Source: Closterium sp. NIES-65
Taxonomy: Eukaryota > Streptophyta > Zygnematophyceae > Desmidiales > Closteriaceae
Assembly: GCA_948144175.1 (NCBI GenBank)
Contig: CANXME010002058.1
Location: 236,501 to 300,500 of the forward strand
DNA: 64,000 nucleotides
Reading direction: 5' to 3'
Shown one piece after another: positions 36,308 through 53,296 of this stretch. The notes beneath the pieces are model-generated. The model saw nothing but the letters and a program-made list of their open reading frames with translations, had not been told where the DNA came from and did no database searches. Made by a program: the position numbers and the translations under genes. The stretch's first letter is position 1; each line of letters starts with the position of its first letter.

Positions 36308-37011
36308 ACTGCTCAATAGAGACTCAGTTATGTCTCCTTGTTGTCGCGCTGCTTTTCGGCGAGTCCTTCACTTACCGTCACCCCCCGGATATAAGCGCCA
36401 CCCTAGGATAAGCGCCTAGCGCTTCTAATTGGCATATGGCGCTTATATCCCCTCCTCGATTATAAGCGCACCCCCTGAAAAAACTAGTTTTATTATAAGC
36501 GCACGTAAACTTTAAAATTTGAAATGTGTACAAAACGTTGTAATGATTTTTACTTTAGCAGGCAGATATGTTGCAGATTCGGTTCCCTTCACATTCGGAC
36601 CCTGCACTGGATGCGGGTCCAGTCAGCAGGAGCTGTCAGGAGCTGGATGTGAGTCAGATTGGGTGTGTCTCCCAGCGCGCGCGAGAATTTCACAGACGAC
36701 CCCATGTAAATTCGACTCGATTGAAAGGGCAAGCACGAGACCTACAGTTTGGTGTTAAACAATATAAAAAATATGAATGTCATTTTATAAACGCCGGCGC
36801 TTATAAATTTACTCGATTATAAGCCCACCCCCTTGAAAAAACCTGTTTTATTATTGCCCCCCATGGGGGTATATCCGGGGGGTGACGGTAACCTAGTGCT
36901 TTTGTCTTTCTGTCAACCGCTTTGGTTGACTTGCTGTTACTTCGCTATAGTTCGATTCGCTTGCCTTGTAGTGCTTGACACATCAGAAGCGTAAACTATA
37001 TGTTTCCAACA
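36308..37011 (-). repeat. E-family LTR, right part, split by MITE
   Basis: The minus strand from 37011 reads TGTTGGAAACATATAG, then TTGACAGAAAGACAAAAGC. After the MITE (36375-36888) it continues with GACTCGCCGAAAAGCAGCG and AAGGAGACATAACT. It is collinear with the E LTR and joins the left part at 30887 across element E. No coding interior accompanies it, so it may be a solo LTR or a truncated element. Confidence 0.75.
36375..36888 (+). mobile_element. MITE-like DNA transposon, 19-bp TIRs, TA TSD
   Basis: 514 bp with perfect terminal inverted repeats CCGTCACCCCCCGGATATA (36375-36393 and 36870-36888), flanked by TA on both sides (36373-36374, 36889-36890). There is no coding capacity. The interior carries palindromic AAGCGC-containing blocks, including an inverted pair at 36387-36400/36437-36450. 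A block of the form CTCGATTATAAGCGCACCCC plus A-run plus TTTTATTAT appears twice. A TA target and CC-ended TIRs suggest a Tc1/mariner or pogo-like non-autonomous element (inference). Confidence 0.85.
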
Positions 37012-37358: not shown

Positions 37359-40300
37359 TCACTGTGGCTGCTCCTGGCCTTCACAATCCCTTGAAAACAC
37401 ACACGTGAAATCCCCCGTGCCGCCCACTATCCGCACAAAGTCATTCCGGCAGAACAGGCCGGCATCCCGCGCCACACAGCGCTCCCCAAACCGCCTCTCC
37501 GCCCACCCTGGCAGCTCCTCCGGCCGCACCACCTCCCCCATGCCCCCCCGCCCTGCCGCCACCACCTCCCTCGCCGTGCCAAGTATCACTCTCAGGTCGC
37601 TCAAATCCTCCTCTGTGAGCTCCACCCGCCGCCGGTGCGTGAAATACTCCTTGCACTCGGGATGCCCGTGCGTGCAGTCGTACAAGCTCAGCCCGTCCAC
37701 CTCAGCGCGGTCCCCTGCCTGGAAGCTTCCTCGGCGGCACATCTTCATGAAGTAGGGGAGGCCGGCACTTAAAGCCATGGCGTAGTAGGTCTCGTGCAGC
37801 ACGTGGTACGGCATGATCTCCACCACTGCCGTGGTGCGCCGTGCAAAGAGCGGCGGGTTGGCGAGCGCGGCGCCGTGCAGGGAGAGGATGATGTCGGCCG
37901 ACTGGATGGCGTCAAACTGCTGCTTGAAGGTCAGCTGGCTCAGCTCCGCCATGCTCACCTGGTGGGAGGGATGAGGGGACGGGGGGATGGGGGAGGTGGG
38001 GAAGGGGGAGAGGGGAGGGAGGAGGGTGCGCATGGAGAGAAATATTAGAAAGACGCCTCAGAAAGTGGTGCTGGAAGGTCAGCTGGCCCAGCTTCGCCCT
38101 GCTCACCTGGTGTGAGGGGAGGGTGTTGGGGCAGACGAGCACGCATGCGAATTATGGACACTGTGTGGAACTGCATACATGAGCAGCAGAGGTGGGAGGG
38201 TGATGATACAGCAAAGGCCAGTGCTGGCTCCGCCGGGGCTCGGGTCACAAGGAACCGCCATTTTTGTTCGGCTGTGCTACCTCTCACGTCATATAAGACA
38301 TGTGCACTCCACCCTCTATGCACCCTCAACGCCACACGCCATGCCCATTCTCATTGTCCCGTGTTGATCTCCTATCACCCGCTCACCTCCATGTGCATCT
38401 CTGCCATCAGTTGCAGCAGGGCCTCACATGGCTGGGTGCTGACTGAGCTCCCCCAGGCGAGTTATGAGTCATGAATCATGAGGCAATGGATTACAAGTCG
38501 CACCTCCATGTTCATCTCCTCCATCACTCGCAGCAGCGCCTCGTGGCTCTCCGGCACGAACGTGCGGCGCTGCCTGAGCTCCGCCCCCAGGCGGGTGATG
38601 TACAGCACGCGCGCCCGCCACCCCTGCGCGCCCTCCGGCCCCCACAGCACCACGGGGGGCGGCTGCAGGCGCAGCTTCACCCGCAGGTGGCGCTGCAGGT
38701 AGCCGGCCTGGGCGGGTGACGAGGGGAACACCTGGCCCTGTTGGGGGGAGGGGAAGAGGGGCCTTCTGAGTCAATTCTAAAGCTTCACACGCACTGCAGT
38801 GCAGAGGTGGCTCTGTGGGGAAGAATAGAGGGAGGGCGATAGAACCCAAAGAGATTGAAGCTCAAGTTGCTGGGAGGGAGGGTGGATGGCACGTGAGAGG
38901 CAGGTTGCTGTGCTTGTGGCACTGCTGGTAGCCTGCCAGCACCGGGGAGGAGAGGGGGCTTGGGCGTGCAGGGAGGGAGGGAGGCACACGTATCCTGAAT
39001 GAGCCCGCACGTGCCCCACGAGGAGGCTCCACACATAGCTGTTTTCGCAGGTGGCGCTGCAGCAGGGCTAGTCCAGCTGCAGAGGGGAGGTGGTTCAGAC
39101 TAGCCTTGCTGTGAGGGGAGGTGAACACATGGAGAAGCTTGATTGCGCTTGATGCGACTTGGTGCGACGTGGAGAACACATGGGAAGGCTGGCTGAACAA
39201 GCGATGAAGGCTATGCTGTGATGTGCTGTGTTGCGCTGTGCTGTGCGGTGCTAAGTGAACAGTCATGTGGGCCGCAGTGTACAGCCACGTGAAACCAGAG
39301 AAGGGTGAGCGCGGTGCACAGAGGAGTGCCGGCAGTGACATGTGCGTGCATGGAAGTTGGGAGGTGAGGATGGGACATGGAGAGAATGAGGAAGATAGGG
39401 AGGGAGGGAAGAGGGGAGGACGATATCCGATTCCAACTCACATGAAAGCAAATCTGGAATACCTGAGAGTTAAATTGGGACACCTGAGAATCCACCAGGG
39501 ACACCTGAAGCCCTGGGGCACGTTGGGCTCACCTTGAGTATCCCCGGCAGCAGCACCCGCTGGAAGCACAGCGGCTCCTCCTCCGTGGCGCGCCGCCACG
39601 CGCCCTCAAACTCCACCAGCCCGTTCGCCATGGGCTCGTCCCCCAACGTGCGGTGCTCGTGCCTGCCTTGCCATGGGGCCGTGGGGGTGGTGGGGGTGGT
39701 GGGGGTGGTGGGGGTGGTGGGGAGGAGAGGGTGGTGGGGAGGAGAGGGTGGTGGGGAGGAGAGGGTGGTGGGGAGGAGAGGGTGGTGGGGAGGAGAGGGT
39801 GGTGGGGAGGAGAGGGTGGTGGGGAGGAGAGGGTGGTGGGGAGGAGAGGGTGGTGGGGAGGAGAGGGTGGTGGGGAGGAGAGGGTGGTGGGGAGGAGAGG
39901 GTGGTGGGGAGGAGAGGGTGGTGGGGAGGAGAGGGTGGTGGGGAGGAGAGGGTGGTGGGGAGGAGAGGGTGGTGGGGAGGAGAGGGTGGTGGGGAGGAGA
40001 GGGTGGTGGGGAGGAGAGGGTGGTGGGGAGGAGAGGGTGGAAACGAGGGTAGAGGGGGCTGTGGGTGAGAGGAGTGGCAGGAGAGCAAGGCTTTATGGAA
40101 GCTCTGGAAACCCAAAAACGGGCAGGTCTGAGCGGCAAAATCCGCTTAAAGCCAGGATCTCAAGTAAGAGATTTTGCCATCAATTGCAAAACACTTGAAG
40201 CTGAGTTACCCCGTTTTTGTAGGCGAGGTAGACTGGATAGCTAGGGAAATTGACAGGAGGGGATTGACACACTGTGCTCCGCTGCTCTAACGAACACTGC

Positions 40301-43300
40301 CCTGTCCTGACTCATTACTGTATATCCGTTGTTGATCTACTCCAGAGCTAACTTTTGAGCTCATTTATATTCTGCTTCAGTTTTAGCCTGTACGTTTTAC
40401 CGTAGTACTGCTTCGTGGAGAGGGAGGTGGCGGGATGTACATCCGTGGTGCGAGGAGCGAGGTGAGCGATTTAGCAAAGGGCTGAGACGGGGGCAAGCAG
40501 AAGAACAGCACGTACAGCTGAGAGGAGGTGTGCATCTGTGGCGTGAGGAGAGGCGTGAGGGCAAACTCAATGAGCGCCTGTAGCACCAACGCGTGGATGG
40601 CGTAGCCACCCCCCATGCGCCACCTGCCGTGTTGCAGGGTGAGGGGGCAGAACGGAATAAGGTGGAATGAGGAGAAGGTGGATGGATGGTGCTGAAGCAG
40701 CGGTGGCTCAGATGAACTCGTTGGCAGTGCTATTGCACTCTGATCAACACTCTGGCATCACTCTGATCAACACTCTGGCATCACTCTATGTAGCTCTACA
40801 TAGTACACTCCTTCCAAGGCGGCTCGTGCAGCACTTGGGCATCATCCCAATCCACACATGATTCACGCATCACCATTCCCCGATGGGTGGACCGTGTGCC
40901 GGTGCGGACTCGATGGAGTGCAGCACTGATATGCAGTGCACACTGGATATCACTGTGCGGGTGCCGTGCAGGGTAGCGTACCGTTCGAGCGTGAAGTCGT
41001 CGCGCGGCAGCATGAAGCGCGCCACAAGGGGGTGCAGCACGGGCGGGTCTGTGAAGTTGTTGGCCAGCAGCAGCGTGAACGCCTTGCCTGGTGGCCGGGG
41101 GGACAGGTGGACGAAAGAGGGGATTGGGAGTGCAGAAGACAAGAGGGCTGCTGGCAGCACTGGTACGTCCGTGACGTTGGTGGCCAGCAAGAGAGTGCAC
41201 GCCTTGCCTGGTGGCCGGGGGGTGGAGAGGAGAGGAGAGGAGAGGAGAGGAGAGGAGCGGGGAGGAGAGGTTGGGGGGCCTGGCTAGATACACAAAGAAC
41301 AAGCGCGTGGAAGAGAGCATGGGAAGACAGCATGGAGGAAAGGGTGTGTGGGAAAGGGTGTGTGGGAAAGGGTGCGCACCAAAGTGTATGGCAGAAATGT
41401 GTGGGCAGTGCGTAGGGGACAGAAGATGAGGGGCTGTCGCAGAAGTTGTGCAGGAACAGAGAACAGGCCCAGGGGGGTGACGAACAGGCGAGAGAGGGTG
41501 AAAGGGGGAGAGGAAACTGTAAGACGGAGATGATGGGAATCATGATGGGCGGGCATGATGGGCGGGCATGATGGGCGGGCATCATGGGCAGGCATGATGG
41601 GCGGGCATCATGGGCAGGCATGATGGGCGGGCATCATGGGCAGGCATGATGGGCGGGCATCATGGGCGGGCGGGCATAATCCACACACAAGCGACGCACC
41701 TATGAAGTGAGCCACGTTCACGGCCTGGTAGTCAAACCGCTGCAACAGCGTGAGCCCAAACCGCCACTCCACTCGCCGCCGCGTCTCCAGCCACCCCTTC
41801 CCCTCCACCGCCCCCTCTCCCCCCTCTTCCCCCCCTCCTTCCCCCCCTCCTCCCCCGCCTCCCCCAGCAGCCCGGAGGTGCACGAGCGAGTTGACGGCCT
41901 CGTCTGTGACCACGCGCAGCGCCTCGCTGAACTCCACCGCCTTGTGGCACCCCACCGCCCGCAGGATGGGCTTGCCCTCGTTGGGGGGCGGCGGGGCGTG
42001 CTCCCTCGCTGCCTCGCACTGTGGCTGCCCCAGCGAGATCATCTGCCGTTGTGTGTGCAGGGCGAATTGGAGAGAGGGAGCGGAGCAGCATGAAGGAATG
42101 GCGCACACGGGCGAGAAGAGGCAGAGACATTACGTTTTTGAGGATATGGATGGGAGAGGCCATCCAGATACATGTGGGTTGCAATCCTCTTGCAAAACAC
42201 CCACCCCACCTCTTGCCCGTTCCAGCACATGGGCTCACTCTCACCCAAGAAGCACAAGAAGCAGAGGTTCCACCCAACCCACCTGCTGCCCGTTCCAGCA
42301 CATGGGGCAGCACCCACCTGCTGGCCGTTCCAGCACATGGGCGAGCAAAGGCAGAGGTTCTGCGAGCAGCAGTAGTTGTTGCGGATGTGGTAGCACGAGC
42401 ACCCCGTGCGCTGCTGACTCAGCGCCACCACGTCAGCGCTGCTATCAAATGACGCCAGCAGATCCTCAACCTGAGCAGTGGAGGTGAGCAGGGGAGGTGA
42501 GCAGGAGAGATGCCCCGAAAGTATGGGGAGTGGGAAAACAACACGAAAGTGATGATGAATAGAAGGAGTGCATCGAGGGTTGGCATGATGGTAGCAGTGC
42601 ACTTTCCAGCGCCTGCACTTTCCAGCGCCTGCACATCAGATCCAAGCGGTGGCCTCAGAGGTGCCATGTCAGCGTGCTTCTCAAATCGCGGCAGCCAGGA
42701 GTGCGGGGATTGAAAAGCACAAGGCGAGGTGAGAGAGCAGCGCAGTGGGATGTTGAAGGTGATGGCGCGAAGAGTGAGGGAGTGAGGCATTGAGGGGAGT
42801 GAGGGAGTGCGGGAGTGAGAGACTGAGGAGTGAAGGAGTGAGGGGGTAAAGAAGTTGTGATGGCTCTACCAAAAGGAGCGAGTTTGGGGGGTTGGGCGGA
42901 GGGAGGAGGGGAGGTGGTGGGGGGACGGGGCATGCACGGATGAACGGGCTTCTTGTGGGAGGTGTCAGGTGGGGGCGACAAGGGGGGTGGGGGCGACAAG
43001 GGAGGGGCGTGGTGGATGAGAAGGCAGGGGAGAGGAGAAGAGGGACGGGTGAAGGGGAGAAACAGAGGGGGTCAACGGAATGGGAAGGTTGGGGAAGTGG
43101 GAGGGGCGAGCGCTGTGAGGGGTTGTTTGAAGTCGACTCAAAAGGCGCACGAGGGCGACTGCGCGCGGGGCGACGCGCGAATTCCCATCGGTGAAGTAGG
43201 GAAGGCGAGCGGGGAGGACGGGAAGGACGGGGGAAAGGGGTTGGAGGGGAGCGGGTGTGGGTGGTAGAAGGGTGTGCGGCGAGGCAATGCACGTTTCCTT

Positions 43301-43695
43301 GCCACAGGGCCATCACATCCACCTTTCACCACCCGCCAATCACCACCCGCCAATCACCATCCCCCACGTACGCGCTGTCGGAAAGCGTCCTCCATCTCGG
43401 GGTGCTTCCGCGGCCGCTCGCGAATCAGCGCGCCCACCCGCGCCACGCCGTACCCGCGTGACGCGCGCGCGCACGTATCATGTGGCGGGCTGATGTGCCG
43501 GTTCGGCGAGGGGTGGAGGAGAAGAAGCGCGAGAAGCAAAGCGCGGAGGCAGCCGAGGCGCATCGGCAGATGGGAGCGATGGAGCATTCGATCGGAGTGC
43601 GGCTCGCGGCGAGGAGGTGTGAGCTGGCAGTGTGTGTGGCGACGCCATGGCGTCATGCTGAACAGTCGTGTTTGTTTCTGCGAGCGCCGTTTCAA
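37359..43695 (-). CDS. GT61-like type II membrane glycosyltransferase
   Basis: Host gene, minus strand. Eight exons with GT-AG junctions and consistent phases: 43695-43372, 42470-42318, 42042-41700, 41087-40982, 40623-40516, 39662-39533, 38737-38504, 37958-37359, giving about 665 aa. Residues 48-61 (LGCLRALLLALLLL) look like a signal anchor, so a Golgi type II enzyme is likely. A Cys-rich segment follows (about 130-155: GCSCYHIRNNYCCSQNLCLC). The C-terminal domain matches GT61/DUF563: RVLYITRLG, then LTFKQQFDAIQSADIILSLHGAALANPPLF and VVEIMPYHVLHETYYAMAL. GT61 members add xylose, arabinose or GlcNAc to glycans; the substrate here cannot be told. The start could be a later Met (positions 14, 37 or 45). 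A Gly/Glu low-complexity insert sits in exon 3 (about 41815-41875). Several introns carry copies of neighbouring exon edges. Confidence 0.78.
38071..38118 (-). repeat. Degenerate copy of the last-exon acceptor edge
   Basis: The minus strand reads CACCAG|GTGAGCAGGGCGAAGCTGGGCCAGCTGACC-like text. This parallels the true acceptor and first codons of the last GT61 exon (VSMAELSQLTF, ending at 37958), about 145 bp upstream of it within the intron. It is probably not used, since it diverges after about 50 bases. Confidence 0.7.
39712..40045 (+). repeat. 17-bp GA/GT-rich minisatellite in an intron
   Basis: GGTGGGGAGGAGAGGGT repeated about 19 times with almost no variation, beginning just upstream (minus strand) of the 39662 acceptor. 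On the minus strand it is a long pyrimidine-rich tract. GGTGG repeats border it at 39680-39715. Confidence 0.9.
41163..41220 (-). repeat. Copy of the exon 4 acceptor region (GT61 gene)
   Basis: It parallels 41044-41100: both read (minus) GGCCACCAGGCAAGGCG, then T[TG]CTGGCCA and CGTCAC/TTCACA. It lies 120 bp upstream of the real acceptor, in the intron. (GGAGA)n follows at about 41222-41262. Confidence 0.75.
41529..41680 (+). repeat. 13-bp tandem repeat in GT61 intron 3
   Basis: GATGGGCGGGCAT units alternating with CATGGGCAGGCAT, about 11 copies, ending about 20 bp from the exon 3 donor (41700). Confidence 0.85.
42200..42307 (-). repeat. Two copies of the exon 2 donor edge (GT61 gene)
   Basis: The true exon 2 end reads (minus) CCATGTGCTGGAACGGCCAG, then CAG|GTGGGT near 42318. 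Near-identical segments follow at about 42307-42275 and 42232-42200, each again followed by GTGGG. Three donor-like sites therefore stand in a row. Only the first fits the phase chain used here. Confidence 0.8.
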
Positions 43696-44119
43696 CTGGC
43701 TTCAGTCGCGATCGATGTTTCCGTCCATAGCGCGGTGCGTTTCGATTACAAGTCTCGCGGATTCCGAAGTTACGCTTGAGGCACTTGAAGCATCACAAAC
43801 GGTTAGTGCGTTATTAGGAACTTGGACTGTACAATGGTAGCATACTTACTGCCTACACAATGGTTGTTTCAGTATGTATACATGCCGAACTGTACTTTAA
43901 CCAACCAAAAAAGGTCGTTTCACTTACTTTTAGGACACCTCATATCTCAAGGTGCTACTGGTGTCACCGTCACATACATACACATACGACTTACTACACT
44001 CTGCTGGAAGCTACTATAATAACTCAGATGTGTCACCGCTAGCATTTCTTTGTTGTAAAACACACAGCAGCACATGGCATGCGGGTGGGGTGTATGAGGG
44101 TGCAAGGCTGCGAGCGAGG
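43696..44119. other. Intergenic between GT61 and FKBP genes
   Basis: About 420 bp, presumed promoter/5' UTR of the glycosyltransferase gene (minus) and 3' UTR of the FKBP gene (minus). No TATA box or other site is clear. Confidence 0.5.
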
Positions 44120-47100
44120 CTATGAGGGAGGGGCCTTGACCTCGAGCAGCTCCACTGTGAGCTGGATGGTGGCGCCCGGCTGGCACATGGGGGTGGGGTG
44201 GGGTGGGGTGGGGAGCAGGAGGAGAGTAAGGGTGAAGCGGTGACGGTGGCATGGGCATGAGCATGAGCATGGACCCATGACATGCTGGCGCGCGATAGAA
44301 TGGATGCCAGGGCATGGTATGTCACAGCATGGTATGACACAGCATGGTATGGTAAAGGTGTGGAACATTTGGGATATTTTCCAAATGAATGGTACGGTTC
44401 GAAAGAGTACCACTCTGAAACGAACGAAGAACTTTCTTCAGCATAGCGTTTATTAAAATGACAAATTTCAACCGTTCAGGCAGTACAGTTCGTTTGGAGC
44501 ATTTCCCGGGTGTTCCAAGCCCTAAAGCATGGTTTGTTTTACTATGGTATGGTATGGTATGGCATGGTATGGTATGGTATGGTATGGTATGGTATGGTAT
44601 GGTATGGTATGGTATGGTATGGTATGGTATGGTATGGTATGGTATGGTATGGTATGGTATGGTATGGTATGGTATGGTATGGTATGGTATGGTATGGTAT
44701 GGTATGGTTTGGTATGGCATGGCATGGCATGGCATGGTATGGTATGGTATGGTATGGTATGGTATGGTATGGTATGGTATGGTATGGTATGGCATGGTAT
44801 GGTATGGTGTGGTATGGTATGGTATGGTATGGTATGGTATGTATGGCATGGCATTGGGTGGAATGGCATGGCATGTTATGGCACGGCATGGCATTGGGTG
44901 GAATGGTATGGCATGTTATGGCATGGAATGGCATCTCTCATGCTTTTACACGGCATGATTTGGCATGGTGTGGTATGCCATACTATGCCATGGCATTGCA
45001 TGGTTTGGCATGGCATGGTTTGACACAGCATGTTTTGAAATGACGTGGTATGATATTTAGTATGGATGGCAAGCCATGGCCAGGCATGGCATGGCACGCA
45101 TGGCATGGTGATGGAGCTCACAGGGATTTCAGCGAAGCCCTTGTCACCGTAACCTTGCTCCGGCGGCACAATCACTGTGCGCTGTGGGGGAGACAGAGCA
45201 GATGCGAGGGAGTGAGAGAAATAAGAGGGGATGCAAGGATGAGGGGATGCAAGAAGAGAATGAAAGCAGTAGGGATGCGCGGGGTGTGGCTCGCATGTAC
45301 TGCACTGTTTTGCCCAAGCAGGTGTGGCTCGCATGTACTGCATTGTTTTGCCCAGCAGGTGTGGCTCTCATGTACTGCACTGTTTTGCCCAAGTTCCTGA
45401 AAGTGTATTGGGCGACACGGGGTGCTTCTCTCCCTCACCCCCCTTCCCTCACCTTGCCGCCCTCACCCCCTTTCCCTCACCTTGCCGCCCTCACCCCCTT
45501 TCCCTCACCTTGCCGCCCTCGCGCATGCCCTCCACCACGCTGTAGAGCGCGCGGGGCGGTTTGGGAGCCGCCTGCGCGGAGAAGAGCCCGTTGGCCGACT
45601 CCGCGTACTCACGCTTCCTCTCCGCGCCCGGCTTGGCGCCTAGTGAGAACTCGTATGGCTGGGGGAGAGAGGTGGGGGTGTGGGGATGTGGGGGGAGTAT
45701 GGGGGGAAAAAGTGGATAAGAACGAGCGGGATGAGTGGTGTGGACTTGCGTTGTCGTGCTTCTTCTCCGCTCCTGGCTTGACGCCCAGGGAGAACTCGTA
45801 CGGCTGGGGGGGGAGGGGAAGGGGGGGGGAGGAGTGTAAACGTGTGAGTAGGGTGAGTGGCATGGACTTCGTTCCCCGCTTCCTCTCCTCGCCCGGCTTG
45901 GCGCCGAGTGAAAGTTCGTATGGCTGGGGGCGAGGGGGAGTGGGAAGGGGGAGGGAGAAGTGGATGCTATTATCTCTCTATTCCGTGCCTGGCTTTGCCG
46001 CCCAGGGCGAACTTGGAGGAAGCTGGGAGCACCTGGGGGGGGGGGAGAGGGGGGGAGAAGGGAAGGGGAGCAGGAGGGGCGGATTGGAGAGGGCCCGTTT
46101 GTGGCAAGAGGAGTGGGGTGGGGCAGTGAGGAAGTGAAAAGGAAGAGCCCGTGGTGGTTGGGGGTGGGATTCGAAGGGGGAGCAGGCCTGCCGAAAGCTA
46201 GAGTGAGAGGAAGAACGCACAGTCAAGGGCTGGATAAAACGGAAACGATGTTACAATGAGCAACGGGGCCCGATGGTTTATCACTGTGTTGCTCATCAGG
46301 TAGAGAATGACCACCCTGCGACACGACTCCGTTGCCCTGCGATATGATTTGGCTGCATGGAAGATATGATTCTGCGGGCGCACCTGGGAGATGACGCGGT
46401 TGCCGCCCAGCAGCTTGGACTGACGGCTGGACACCACCGTGAGGCTGCGATACGTCACGTCAAAGTGCACCTGGGGGGGGGGAGAGGGGGGGAGGGGAAG
46501 GGGGGAGGGCCGGAGGAGGCGTGGGAGGAGGAGAGGGTTGACTGAGAACACACTTGGACTGGCGGGTGGACACCACCATCAGGCTGCGATAGGTCACGTC
46601 AAAATGCACCTGGGGGGAGTGGGGAGTGGGGAGGGGGGAGGGGGGAAGGGGTGAGGAGGGGTTGGGGAAGAGAATCGTGGGGAGAGTGAGAGTCGGGAGG
46701 GTGGGACGGAAAAGCGGAAAGTGTGAGACAGTCGGCGTGGTGGAGTGGAGTGGGGACGATGCGTGGAGAAGCGTGAGGAGGAGGGTAGAGGAGGGAGGGG
46801 TGTGGCGGGCGAGCTGAGACGCGCGTGCATGTGGAGCGAAACCGCTTATTTGCTTGTCCTGGAGCAGCATGGCTGCACTTGCATGAGCTGTGCAGCAGTG
46901 ACGCACGCCTGGCATGTTGTGCCTTTCGTCTCTCCTCCCCCTCCTCTCTCCCCCCTCGCCCCATCGTCCCACCCTTCCCCTCCCCCCCCTTCCCTCGCCC
47001 CCCCTCACCACGACGGGGTCGCCCTGCTCCGCCAGCCTGCCCTTGCCCGCCGCCACGTCGTAGAAGCGCAAGCCGCTCTCTGCCGCACCCACACACCGGC

Positions 47101-48159
47101 GGGGGGAAGGGGAGGGGAGGGAAGAGAGGGGGGGAGGAAGACGGGATGGGAGGGAATGAATGTCCCGCGCGTGGTGTGGTGCGTGTGCTGCGCCTGTTGG
47201 CGCTACTCTGGAGTGCGAGCAGCAGCGCTGGGATGGCCGCACGGAGCGTTGGGCGAGTGAAGCAGCCCAGAAAGCACCGAGCTATCCGCCGTCCCTCAGA
47301 CGCCTCTCGCACTCACCGCCCTCTGCGCTCACCGCCCTCTGCGCTCACCGCCCTCTGCGCTCACCGCCCTCTGCGCTCACCGCCCTCCGCACTCACCGCC
47401 CTGCGCGCTCACAGCCCTCTGCACTCACCGCCCTCTGCACTCACCGCCCTCTGCACTCACCGCCCTCCGCACTCACCGCCCTCCGCACTCACCGCCCTCC
47501 GCACTCACCGCCCTCCGCACTCACCGCCCTCTGCACTCACCGCCCTCTGCGCTCACCGCCCTCTGCGCTCACCGCCCTCTGCGCTCACCGCCCTCCGCAC
47601 TCACCGCCCTGCGCGCTCACCGCCCTCCGCACTCACCGCCCTCCGCACTCACCGCCCTCTGCACTCACCGCCCTGCGCACTCACCGCCCTGCGCACTCAC
47701 CGCCCTCCGCACTCACCGCCCTCTGCACTCACCGCCCTCCGCACTCACCGCCCTCTGCACTCACCGCCCTTCGCACTCACCGCCCTCTTGGTACATCTCC
47801 TCGGGAATGTCGATCCTCGTCCGCCTTTCCCGCGCCATTGCCTCGTCGGCGCCGCCGTTTCCGGAACCGAAGAGCGAATCCAGCGCCGGCAGCAATGCGA
47901 GCGACGACAGCACGGCGCGTCTCGTCACGCTGACGTCATCGTTCGGGTTAGACGTAACGTTGCGGGTACTCGAGATGGAATCCGCGGCTTGTGTTCGCAC
48001 GGATTCGCGAAGTGTCGCGGCATTCGCGAATTCGGCACTAGCTTGACATGTAACAGTTGAAGCGCCGGTCGACAGGCGCTGGTTAGCAGAGAGAGGTTGA
48101 GTGATGGTGTCCGGTCGGGTAACCAGCCGCAATGCGGGTTCCAACGAAACGAGCGACAT
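44120..48159 (-). CDS. FKBP18: Thylakoid-lumen FKBP-type prolyl isomerase
   Basis: Host gene, minus strand, six exons: 48159-47781, 47079-47009, 46470-46384, 45658-45509, 45181-45122, 44179-44120. Phases agree throughout; the product is about 268 aa. FKBPs catalyse cis-trans isomerisation of Xaa-Pro bonds. Residues 1-75 are Ser/Thr-rich and basic, as in a chloroplast transit peptide. TRRAVLSSLALLPAL (79-93) followed by AMA (107-109) looks like a twin-arginine lumenal signal. The PPIase domain (about 150-268) shows VHFDVTYRSLTVVSSRQSK, PYEFSLG, FSAQAAPKPPRALYSVVEGM, RTVIVPPEQGYGDKGFAEIP and PGATIQLTVELLEVK. The KREYAESANGLFSAQAAPKP stretch recalls Arabidopsis FKBP18 from memory, so the symbol is tentative. 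I chose the ATG at 48159, the first in frame. Introns are crowded with splice-edge copies. Confidence 0.87.
44538..44850 (+). repeat. (TATGG)n pentanucleotide microsatellite
   Basis: About 60 units with rare TTTGG, CATGG and TGTGG variants, in the last FKBP intron (44180-45121). Degenerate copies continue to about 45110. It reads open in several frames on both strands only because a 5-bp repeat lacks stops. Confidence 0.95.
45293..45398 (+). repeat. Three tandem copies of a 36-bp unit
   Basis: GTGGCTCGCATGTACTGCAC followed by TGTTTTGCCCAAGCAG, three times, in FKBP intron 4. Function unknown. Confidence 0.85.
45445..45520 (-). repeat. Tandem copies of the FKBP exon 4 donor
   Basis: A 28-bp unit (minus strand GGGCGGCAAGGTGAGGGAAA core) occurs three times. 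The copy nearest 45509 is the real exon end (GGK, then GTGAGG). The next two lie downstream in the intron, each with an intact AAG|GTGAGG. Confidence 0.85.
45755..46036 (-). repeat. Copies of the FKBP exon 4 acceptor edge
   Basis: The real exon starts (minus) CAG|CCATACGAGTTCTCACTAGG at 45658. Similar blocks stand at about 45812-45755 (PYEFSLGVKPGAEKK) and 45935-45875 (PYELSLGAKPGEERK), with a weaker one at about 46036-45990. Each has its own CAG acceptor. Spacing is about 120-150 bp. Confidence 0.82.
46560..46617 (-). repeat. Copy of the FKBP exon 3 acceptor edge
   Basis: The minus strand reads CAG|GTGCATTTTGACGTGACC and translates VHFDVTYRSLMVVSTRQSK, nearly the same as the real exon 3 start at 46470 (VHFDVTYRSLTVVSSRQSK). 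It lies 140 bp upstream in the intron. Confidence 0.82.
47325..47790 (-). repeat. Minisatellite built from the FKBP exon 1 donor site
   Basis: A 16-bp unit (plus strand CTCTGCGCTCACCGCC, minus GGCGGTGAGTGCGGAG) is repeated about 29 times. The rightmost member is the real exon 1 end, GGCG|GTGAGTGC at 47781. Every unit therefore offers a GT donor in the minus strand. Variation is mainly CTGCGC/CCGCAC. Confidence 0.9.
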
Positions 48160-48961
48160 AGTCAATGGCTGGACACCCGAACATGTAGCGGTGGTACCTT
48201 GGCTCGCTCAAATGAGGGTGTGGTGGATTGTGCGGAAGCAGAGAAACGACGGACGAGTGAGATGAAGGGTTATGTGAGGAGGTATTTTTAGATTGCGGCA
48301 GTGGGGGGAGCAGGGTAGGCGAGGCGGTGCCTAGTTGCAGATTGCAAGCGACGAACTCCGAGAATGGCGACCGTTGTTGCGACGCTGCGAAATTAGCTTA
48401 CATCGAAAACACATTATTCGCTTGCTGGGCCGCACGACACATTTCGCCGACGACGACATTTCTTCCACCAGCCGCTCGTTCGAAAGATGCTTCGTCGAAA
48501 CAATGCCACGCCAAACCTGACCACTGTTGACGTGGCAGATTGAACTTCTGAGGATTGAGGGGTCGCCACGACAAGTGGTAGGGAAGTTGGTTGGCAGAGC
48601 GGCAGAGCAGCCACGCCAGCAAGATCAGCGTGCTGAAACTTCCTCACCGTTTATGGTATGATCTGGGAACCATACAGTAACACACGTTATGGCAATTCAT
48701 TAAAAGTTCTGAGGAACAACGGAGTTGATTAAGCAAGTGAATGGTTCACCGCACCTTCGTTCTGTGTTGTTGTAATGTTAGAGAGATGCATCACAATGAC
48801 CACTCTGTACCCGGATCTCAGCAGTAAAATTGATGCATGGATAATTGTTCTCAATTCACTTTGATTGCTCCCTAAGGCCAAGAGGAGCAATACCCAACCC
48901 ACCCATACTATTGAACCTTTCTCTAAGAGTTTACCAGCTGCTTTGACACTCAACGACCATG
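48160..48961. other. Intergenic upstream of the FKBP gene
   Basis: About 800 bp, AT-richer. It should hold the FKBP promoter (minus strand). No repeat, RNA gene or convincing reading frame is seen. Confidence 0.5.
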
Positions 48962-49169
48962 TCATGGGAGGGTGGGGTGAGGCAAGTTGAAGCTTGAAAG
49001 ATCTTCAGAGCAGTCACTGAAATAATCAAGGGGCCGAAGAGAACCCGAGGGAGGGGGAAGGGGGAATGAGAAAAAGGTGATGATTAAAGAACATGGTGTG
49101 ATGGCACACCATGGAATCCCGTGGACAGAGAAGGGGGAGAATGTGACAGGAAGGAGATATGGAAGGAGG

Positions 49170-49970
49170 GAGATATGGAATAGTGACGAACATCTGCGGA
49201 TCCGCCGAAATGCGGTTCGCCTTCTTGATGCCCGCCACCTGCTCGCCACACACCTGCTCGCCACACACCTGCTCGCCACACACCTGCTCGCACACACCGC
49301 GCACGGTGGGCAGCACATGAGTGTGGAGGGATGGACACAGGATGCGTGCATGAAATGATTCGATTCGATGCAGAAAATGGGCGTGCGCTTGGGAAGGATC
49401 GGCAGGAAGGAGAGTGACGAGGTGCACACGAGGCGGGCATGCTAGACGGCGGGAGGGCGGGTGAGGAAGCATCTTGCACAGACTGACGCGAGCATGCTGC
49501 GATGCGATGCACTGATTGCGTGCTCATGTGGCATGTGGGTGTTCAGGAAGGCCAAACACAGCTATTGCAGGAGTAGAACCTTCTACAGCGAGATGCGAGA
49601 GACATAGATCATCGGACTGATAGCAGCGGAGAGCAATGCTTTAGTTCCGCGCAGAAAGGCAGAGGTGAGGGAAACACACGAGACACAGCGGTAACGACGA
49701 GAATATTTAAGTGGGGCACGAGGAGAGCGAGGCGTAGCACACCTGGGCGGCATAGCGGATGGGGATGGCGGCGAGGGTGTGGAAGCGAGTCACCTCGTGC
49801 AGCACGCACTGCTGCCCGCCATCCCAGCGCGCGGCGGGAGACACGCTTGGCTCGGCGCCAGGGGAGAAGCCCTGCCTAAGGACATCTGCACGAGCCCCGT
49901 GTGACGACCGGGATCTTCAGTGTGACCAACATGCGCCGATTCAGGTCAACGCTTACGCGCTGTATAACAC
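49170..49970 (-). CDS. LysM-domain protein gene, partly resolved
   Basis: Minus-strand exons encode LysM text. One exon ends at 49744 and reads GGQQCVLHEVTRFHTLAAIP followed by IRYAAQ. The next begins at 49238 with VAGIKKANRISADPQMFVT. The CAG|GTG junction is in phase, and together they give the usual LysM order (H-x-V...TL..IA.KY...I..aN....). A further LysM-tail-like piece (RRMLVTLKIPVV) lies upstream at about 49960-49890, so a second LysM or a longer gene is likely. LysM domains bind GlcNAc-containing glycans; some plant members are intracellular. No transmembrane or kinase part is visible. I could not fix the first or last exon. Confidence 0.5.
49235..49300 (-). repeat. Tandem copies of the LysM exon acceptor
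   Basis: A 15-bp unit (minus strand GTGTGTGGCGAGCAG) occurs four times, ending in the real acceptor GCGAGCAG|GTGGCGGGC at 49238. It is the same pattern as in the two neighbouring genes. Confidence 0.82.
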
Positions 49971-52177: not shown

Positions 52178-53296
52178 ATGGCCCATATGCAATCGACGTT
52201 GTCGGCGCGGGACCTCACCTTCGCCGTGCTCTGCTCCGCGTTATGGGTGGCGACTCTCCCACGCATCGCGGATTCAGTTCCTCTCTCGTACGTGCTGAGT
52301 CAGATCCGCGACACGTCCAACACGGACGGCAAGCCCGCCGGCATGACCGCGGGAGTGGTGGAGTTCGCCGCCGGATACGACAAGGTGGATGACATTTCCG
52401 GAAGCTCGCTTCTTTTTCCCATTAACGAAGGCTGGACTAGCGCGCTCACGGGTTACAAGGCCAAGAACCCGTCTGCCACAACCTCGTCCGACCCGGTTCT
52501 CGAGGCGCTCAACACGGTGGTGTCCTCGTCGGGATCCGTGTCGGCCCTCAACGGCATGTCCGCCAACGGCAAGAACGCGCTGTCGCGCCTCGCCAAGTTC
52601 ATGGCGATCCGCGGCACCATCTCAACCACAGACATGGAAAGTGGCAGCGTGAGTGTCACGGTCCCGCCACTCGTGGAAAGCACAGTATATCATTCTCCCT
52701 TGCGTCCCTTGCACCACCATCAGATGGATGTCGCACTCCATTCTCTCCTCGTCATTGCAACTCGCGCATGATCGTCCCATTGTCCATAATGAATACTTTT
52801 CCCCCCCAAGCAGTACAAGAACGGGCGGTTCAGCTTCGATACGGAGGTGAACCAGCCAATATACCTGTACGCCAACGTCACTGGCGCGCTCATGTATGCC
52901 AGCATCGGGGGCTTGGATCACGTCTTCACTGGGACCGACCGTGGCGCCGTTGAACCCTCTACTTACAAGAAGAATGGACTCATGGCGGGGAGTGATGATG
53001 GAACGCCGAGAGCAGCCGCGGATGTGCTAGTGGCTGCTATCTTGACAACCAGCCGTGTTAAAGGTGCCATCAAGACAACCGACTCCGATATGACCGCCAT
53101 GTTTGTGACTGACGTGGCGTTCCCCGCCAACATGGGCTCGCTTACCAGCTCCGACCCCGTGTCACCGTATGGCAAAGGTGTGTTGTGGGGTGTGGATGCT
53201 ACAGCCATGCCTTTGAGTCGCTTGCTGCTACTAAGGCAGCTCTTTCCTGCACTGATGTTGCGACAGGTAGTGAGAGGTGGCGTAGATGATGCATGA
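52178..53296 (+). CDS. Secreted protein, weakly fasciclin (FAS1)-like
   Basis: Host gene with exons 52178-52648 and 52814-53296 (GTGAGT...CAG intron, phase 0), about 317 aa. The start context GCAACCATGG is favourable and gives a signal peptide (LTFAVLCSALWVATLP, then ADS as likely cleavage). The body contains SSLLFPINEGWTSALTGYK, ALSRLAKFMAIRGTISTTDM and, after the intron, IYLYANVTGALMYASIGGLD. The spacing of the first two blocks recalls the FAS1 elements for 'fAPtneAf' and 'Ll.yHvl.g.is..dl', but the match is weak. The 3' end is uncertain: a donor-like GGTGTGTTG near 53180 and acceptor CAG near 53269 allow a shorter product. No GPI signal is evident. Role unknown; perhaps cell wall or extracellular matrix. 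Confidence 0.6.

Follow-up and report, generated by a model that had tools for sequence, protein, structure and literature searches.

The stretch of DNA considered here, a window of 64,000 nucleotides (nt) from Closterium sp. NIES-65 (assembly GCA_948144175.1, contig CANXME010002058.1, positions 236,501 to 300,500), carries on its minus strand a GT61-like glycosyltransferase gene, a gene for an FKBP-type prolyl isomerase and a LysM-like fragment, and the introns of these loci hold copies of their own exon-intron borders (Table 1). The gene models of GT61 and FKBP are both complete. The GT61 protein matches Pfam family PF04577 (E-value 1.3e-6) and the FKBP protein matches PF00254 (E-value 1.4e-12); furthermore, FKBPs from the PDB align over the exon 4/5 and exon 5/6 junctions of the latter gene. 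All 12 introns of the two genes are of the GT-AG type. A preliminary description of this DNA had spoken of three neighbouring genes. This stands for GT61 and FKBP, whereas the third locus is only a fragment, whose translation gave no significant match in a Pfam search. Its attribution to the LysM family is an assumption taken over from that description.

In order to detect copies, a probe made of 50 exon bases and 10 intron bases was scored against the adjoining intron for each of the 26 borders of the 13 introns, the LysM borders being offset by one base in this scoring, in the controls and in the repeat-rate counts. A strong copy on the same strand (score of at least 36) was found in the border's own intron for 8 of the 26 borders, and each of these eight outscores every one of the 200 dinucleotide shuffles made from it. 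This score was reached by none of the 312 comparisons of border probes with other introns, by none of 26 inverted probes and by none of 39 exon-interior probes; a score of 30 was reached by one of the 312 comparisons with other introns. Therefore, within the 13 introns of these genes, the copies are restricted to the intron of their own border, and no introner-like dispersal was seen in the same comparisons. Weaker scores, from 23 to 28, were obtained at 4 of the remaining 18 borders, namely at the LysM acceptor array and at three remnants in GT61 introns 1, 5 and 6, a score of 23 being reached by 6 of the 312 null comparisons. Self-comparison of the genes, filtered for low complexity, also returned local same-strand pairs at borders, with the shifts of Table 1 for the GT61 exon 8 acceptor (148), exon 7 donor (117), exon 4 acceptor (120) and exon 2 donor (108) and for the FKBP exon 3 acceptor (139), as well as the FKBP exon 4 acceptor (145, plus further copies) and the FKBP exon 1 donor array.

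Table 1. Gene models, border copies and weak remnants in the window, with the intervals named in the preliminary description (shifts in bp; positions in the window)
Feature	Position	Strand	Details	Interval in the preliminary description
GT61-like glycosyltransferase gene	37359..43563	-	8 exons, open frame of 621 amino acids (aa), 7 GT-AG introns	
GT61 exons 1-4	43563-43372, 42470-42318, 42042-41700, 41087-40982	-		
GT61 exons 5-8	40623-40516, 39662-39533, 38737-38504, 37958-37359	-		
FKBP-type prolyl isomerase gene	44120..48159	-	6 exons, open frame of 268 aa, 5 GT-AG introns	
FKBP exons 1-6	48159-47781, 47079-47009, 46470-46384, 45658-45509, 45181-45122, 44179-44120	-		
LysM-like fragment	49193..49840	-	two putative exons, about 49840-49743 and 49238-49193, based on translation	
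GT61 exon 8 acceptor border, copy	38062..38123	-	source 37914-37977, shift 148, AG kept	38071-38118
GT61 exon 7 donor border, copy	38384..38460	-	shift 117, GT kept, gapped match to ~90 exon bases	
GT61 exon 4 acceptor border, copy	41154..41222	-	source 41034-41102, shift 120, AG kept	41163-41220
GT61 exon 2 donor border, two copies	42205..42311	-	shifts 35 and 108, GT kept in both	42200-42307
FKBP exon 4 acceptor border, three successive copies	45758..46060	-	first exon-like bases 45803, 45923 and 46022, AG kept in all three	45755-46036
FKBP exon 3 acceptor border and adjoining intron, copy	46553..46673	-	shift 139, AG kept	46560-46617
Array with FKBP exon 4 donor	45432..45520	-	28-nt unit, 3.2 copies	45445-45500
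Minisatellite with FKBP exon 1 donor	47303..47788	-	16-nt unit, ~30 copies (486 bp), directly after exon 1	47325-47780
Array with LysM-fragment acceptor	49236..49298	-	15-nt unit, 4.3 copies	49239-49300
Weak remnant, similar to bases +12 to +50 of GT61 exon 7	38917..38955	-	score 28, reached by 2/312 nulls	
Weak remnant, similar to GT61 exon 5 (3' part)	40436..40466	-	score 27, reached by 2/312 nulls	
Weak remnant, similar to the acceptor-proximal part of GT61 exon 2	42664..42695	-	score 23, reached by 6/312 nulls	

All eight intervals named in the preliminary description hold the border copies that it had reported from adjacent introns. Absent from its list was a copy of the GT61 exon 7 donor (about 38384-38460). 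Its range of 10 to 50 exon bases per copy is exceeded by this same copy, with about 90 bases. Simple repeats abound in these introns, and one might suspect that such a pattern results from chance resemblance, from low complexity or from an error of assembly. Chance similarity and low complexity are rejected on the strength of the shuffle, other-intron, inverted and exon-interior controls; as for an assembly error, the divergence between copy and exon amounts to 11-25% of positions in five cases, so these copies are not duplicated reads. Hence, an artefactual origin appears extremely improbable.

The copies are of two kinds: arrays of short units (15-28 nt) and longer duplications. The latter are mostly shifted by 99-148 bp from the neighbouring copy, the nearer copy of the GT61 exon 2 donor (35 bp) being the exception. 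Each of them straddles a single junction, comprising exon as well as intron sequence, and lies on the same strand as this junction. In the minisatellite that follows FKBP exon 1, nearly every unit repeats the exon 1 donor, GGCG/GTGAGT or GTGAGC (the slash marks the junction), the splice donors of the units being consensus-like (GGCGGTGAGT or GGCGGTGAGC). For five acceptor copies that were compared without gaps, the gapped fourth FKBP unit being left out, identity over exon bases 1-40 is 0.80-0.92 between a copy and its own border versus 0.21-0.31 for mismatched pairs, and identity over intron bases -10 to -3 is 0.86 versus 0.61. Upstream of -10 and past about +50 to +60, identity is near the control level, but gapped alignments extend the homology of the FKBP copies further into the intron than ungapped ones. 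The exon parts of the copies differ from the exon at 6/45 positions for GT61 exon 8, 14/57 for GT61 exon 4 and 6/54, 9/48 and 6/48 for the other three, so that the divergence of the five copies ranges from 0.11 to 0.25 and is mostly at the low end. It could be argued that such copies are decayed tandem duplications of whole exons, that is to say former cassette or mutually exclusive exons, and the approximately 90 exon bases covered by the GT61 exon 7 donor copy would fit this origin. However, the alignments show that each of the longer copies has a single border and ends within the exon, the second splice site being missing, which makes exon duplication a very improbable source.

The AG or GT is retained in all nine longer copies inspected, in agreement with the earlier statement that many copies keep a usable dinucleotide. 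Such retention could indicate that copies are kept for a function, as alternative or back-up splice sites or as decoys regulating splicing. Two copy sites would leave the reading frame open. Splicing at the GT61 exon 4 acceptor copy would yield a protein of 661 aa, longer by 40 codons, and splicing at the more distant of the two GT61 exon 2 donor copies one of 657 aa. Furthermore, in GT61 exon 7 the copied donor (GTGAGC) seems nearer to the donor consensus than the used donor (GTGCGA), and the exon-derived part of the GT61 exon 8 copy is better preserved than its spacer. On the other hand, in 7 of the 9 cases use of the copy site would shift the frame or introduce a premature stop, so most copies would not provide alternative coding borders; the 16-nt unit of the 47303-47788 array also shifts the frame. 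In addition, nine kept dinucleotides out of nine have, by our own estimate, a chance of roughly 0.05-0.1 at an identity of about 85%, and that very site had served as the anchor of the alignments. Retention for function is therefore improbable as a general explanation, and alternative splicing through most of the copies, which the preliminary description had envisaged, is unlikely judging from the predicted frames.

Our proposal is that the copies are relics of tandem duplications that took place locally across splice borders and have since decayed, a reading to which we give a probability of about 0.7. If a segment of approximately 100-150 bp that spans a donor or an acceptor is duplicated, or if a unit of 15-28 nt containing one expands, two equivalent splice sites would result. 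Splicing at one of them would leave the protein unchanged, and the other one, together with its piece of exon, would become part of the intron, which would grow by one unit per event; border duplications would be tolerated for this reason. The unused copy would then decay, presumably neutrally, while selection would hold the exon edge in use, and duplications lying entirely within exons would be purged. The weaker, older-looking remnants at further borders agree with such a decay. Moreover, in units 1 and 2 of the FKBP exon 4 acceptor series, the intron spacer is repeated along with the border (P = 0.002 and 0.003 in two tests), as expected from the duplication of a continuous segment.

Several observations weigh against this scenario. 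Units 2 and 3 of the same FKBP series have no detectable shared spacer (P = 0.64). Spacer homology is borderline for FKBP exon 3 (P = 0.026, or 0.126 with other limits), which is suggestive of a spacer duplicated with its border. It was not detected for GT61 exon 8 (P = 0.46 and 0.65), with a power of 0.91-1.0 at divergences of 0.12-0.18, nor for GT61 exon 4 (P = 0.47 and 0.76), for which power is 0.76-0.97 at these divergences and only 0.33 at 0.25, the divergence of this copy itself (14/57). Purine-rich simple arrays lie where homology of these two GT61 spacers would be expected (37968-38026 for exon 8 and 41224-41270 for exon 4), and it is possible that such low-complexity sequence has overwritten the spacers. 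Furthermore, the acceptor copies all penetrate the exon to much the same depth, about 40-60 bases, which random breakpoints would not lead one to expect. Finally, the five copies show 20.5 synonymous versus 19.5 nonsynonymous differences, a synonymous share somewhat above our neutral expectation, from which we claim no selection.

Another question is whether borders are special in being duplicated or only in keeping duplicates. At a loose threshold, 11 of the 26 border probes are repeated versus one of the 39 exon-interior probes (Fisher P = 8e-5), the sole exon-interior match being located in GT61 exon 7, whose donor copy is long. Such a contrast is what the purging of exon duplications predicts. 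By comparison, 51 of 153 intron-interior probes, counted outside the border arrays, are repeated in their own intron, a proportion that does not differ from that of the borders (Fisher P = 0.25). Hence, no border-specific excess over intron interiors was found in the two genes and the fragment when all arrays are counted. The intron-interior repeats appear to lie mostly in short-period arrays. Since intron interiors are as repeat-rich as borders and exon interiors are not, exon purging combined with introns that are generally prone to duplication accounts for much of the border pattern.

The class of long shifts (about 100-150 bp) behaves differently, all six such events in GT61 and FKBP being located on borders. 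In this count, the threefold FKBP exon 4 acceptor series is taken as a single event and three clusters of short-unit arrays (44300-45108, 45283-45393 and 47303-47788) are left out. We simulated events placed uniformly, with purging of those in exons, decay and the same detection. At divergences of 0.12, 0.15, 0.18, 0.21 and 0.24, the simulated border share is 0.29, 0.32, 0.38, 0.58 and 0.78, and the probability of six out of six is 0.0006, 0.0010, 0.0031, 0.038 and 0.23, respectively; with mixed ages, the share is 0.36 and P is 0.002. The excess over the 29-58% simulated at divergences of 0.12-0.21 would fit splice borders being true mutational hot spots, at which transcription, R-loops or the purine and pyrimidine tracts of acceptors seed duplications, beyond what tolerance and visibility produce. 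The copy-bearing acceptors do have pyrimidine-rich flanks, but copy-free borders have similar tracts, and neither a C-run nor a pyrimidine tract clearly distinguishes copy-bearing borders from the others. Moreover, P rises to 0.23 at a divergence of 0.24, intron interiors equal borders in repeats once all arrays are counted, and the sample comprises six events from two genes, selected post hoc and leaving three array clusters aside, in a region picked by an earlier reader for this very pattern. We thus regard a hot spot as a tentative and rather doubtful explanation. As for the earlier proposal that introns grow by tandem duplication seeded at splice sites, its first part stands, as the copies look like local duplications that make the intron longer, but seeding is not supported by the overall repeat rates; confinement to borders holds for the long-shift class alone, with a P value that depends on the divergence assumed.

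The introns of these genes hold many further tandem arrays. These include a minisatellite of 20 units of 17 nt with 98% matches in GT61 intron 5 (39694-40040), which was not seen to derive from a border, an array of five 26-nt units in GT61 intron 3 (41541-41671) and an array of about 78 TATGG units in FKBP intron 5 (44543-44931). A direct repeat (36455-36854, distance 357) with an A/T-rich stretch is located about 0.5-0.9 kb past the end of the GT61 gene. Several copia-like retroelement frames occupy 27-36 kb and 54-64 kb of the window; the five that were tested each carry an RVT_2 reverse transcriptase, GAG-pre-integrase or integrase domain. A gene on the plus strand (52179-53270), apparently with one short intron, has no Pfam match for the translation of its first exon and shows no local duplication cluster in self-comparison. 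The first part of the window (1-26 kb) was covered by tandem-repeat listing and self-comparison only. No Rfam family was found over the 64 kb, and a search for transfer RNA genes found none. Among the viral contigs queried with the retroelement, no related locus was found. The FKBP query gave a single match of 16 residues in a contig of the viral collection, which was taken as chance because it lies opposite an open frame of 513 residues.

Local duplications within genes that involve splice sites were reportedly surveyed by Gao and Lynch in 2009, in work on internal gene duplication in eukaryotes. Unlike such cases, the copies described here are partial and decayed, lie within introns and affect roughly one border in three in adjacent genes.

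The closest parallel comes from the potato RdRp gene, for which Ma et al. 2016 (PMC4974935) describe a tandem duplication over one intron-exon boundary that made a new intron. As proposed for Closterium, the duplication crosses a single border and carries the acceptor signals along; however, it yielded a new intron and a piece of exon in potato, whereas the extra border is absorbed here into an old intron, and this at many borders. Novel introns of Drosophila seem to stem from tandem duplication (PMC2891723), which a review calls a genuine source of introns (PMC3443670). In the AGGT model of Rogers and the ATP2A1 case of Hellsten, as outlined in PMC3443670 and PMC4974935, splice-like sequence is duplicated. 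Some borders here likewise read CAG/GTGAGC or CAG/GTGCAC, but these cases concern the gain of introns, whereas the copies described here appear to lie within existing ones. In fission yeast, 24-bp exonic AGGT duplications are described (PMC4974935), which also amount to short-unit duplications at splice-like sequence; there, the intron spans the exonic duplicates, whereas the repeats found here adjoin an existing border. Finally, in IFI6 (Turri et al. 1995, as described in PMC4526556), a minisatellite supplies splice donors and two downstream units are used. The arrays at 47303-47788 and 45432-45520 resemble it, with a donor in each unit beside an exon, but, whereas two IFI6 units serve as donors, use of further 16-nt units in the Closterium array would change the frame.

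In view of these boundary-crossing duplications (PMC4974935) and of the IFI6 donors (PMC4526556), both in print, the earlier statement that no system of this kind had been described was too strong. Beyond the cases cited above, we recognised no described case of stacked splice-border copies in our searches of an open-licence library. What sets the present case apart is the outcome, that is to say the lengthening of introns with stacked spare borders, and its density, with strong copies at 8 of 26 borders in adjacent genes.

The lengthening of introns without breakage of the gene is usually inferred rather than seen. In these adjacent genes of Closterium, roughly one border in three is accompanied by its own copies, which have decayed to differing degrees. 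Therefore, the idea that duplication at splice borders brings its own remedy becomes measurable; according to this idea, the splice border would be the single place of a gene where this is so. It is rather unlikely, on the present data, that border duplication recurs throughout the lineage, with introns growing by stacking their own borders and the copies forming a reserve of splice sites to which borders could jump, some of them giving in-frame isoforms. If the pattern were genome-wide, such duplications would be a direct source of both intron length and spare splice sites.

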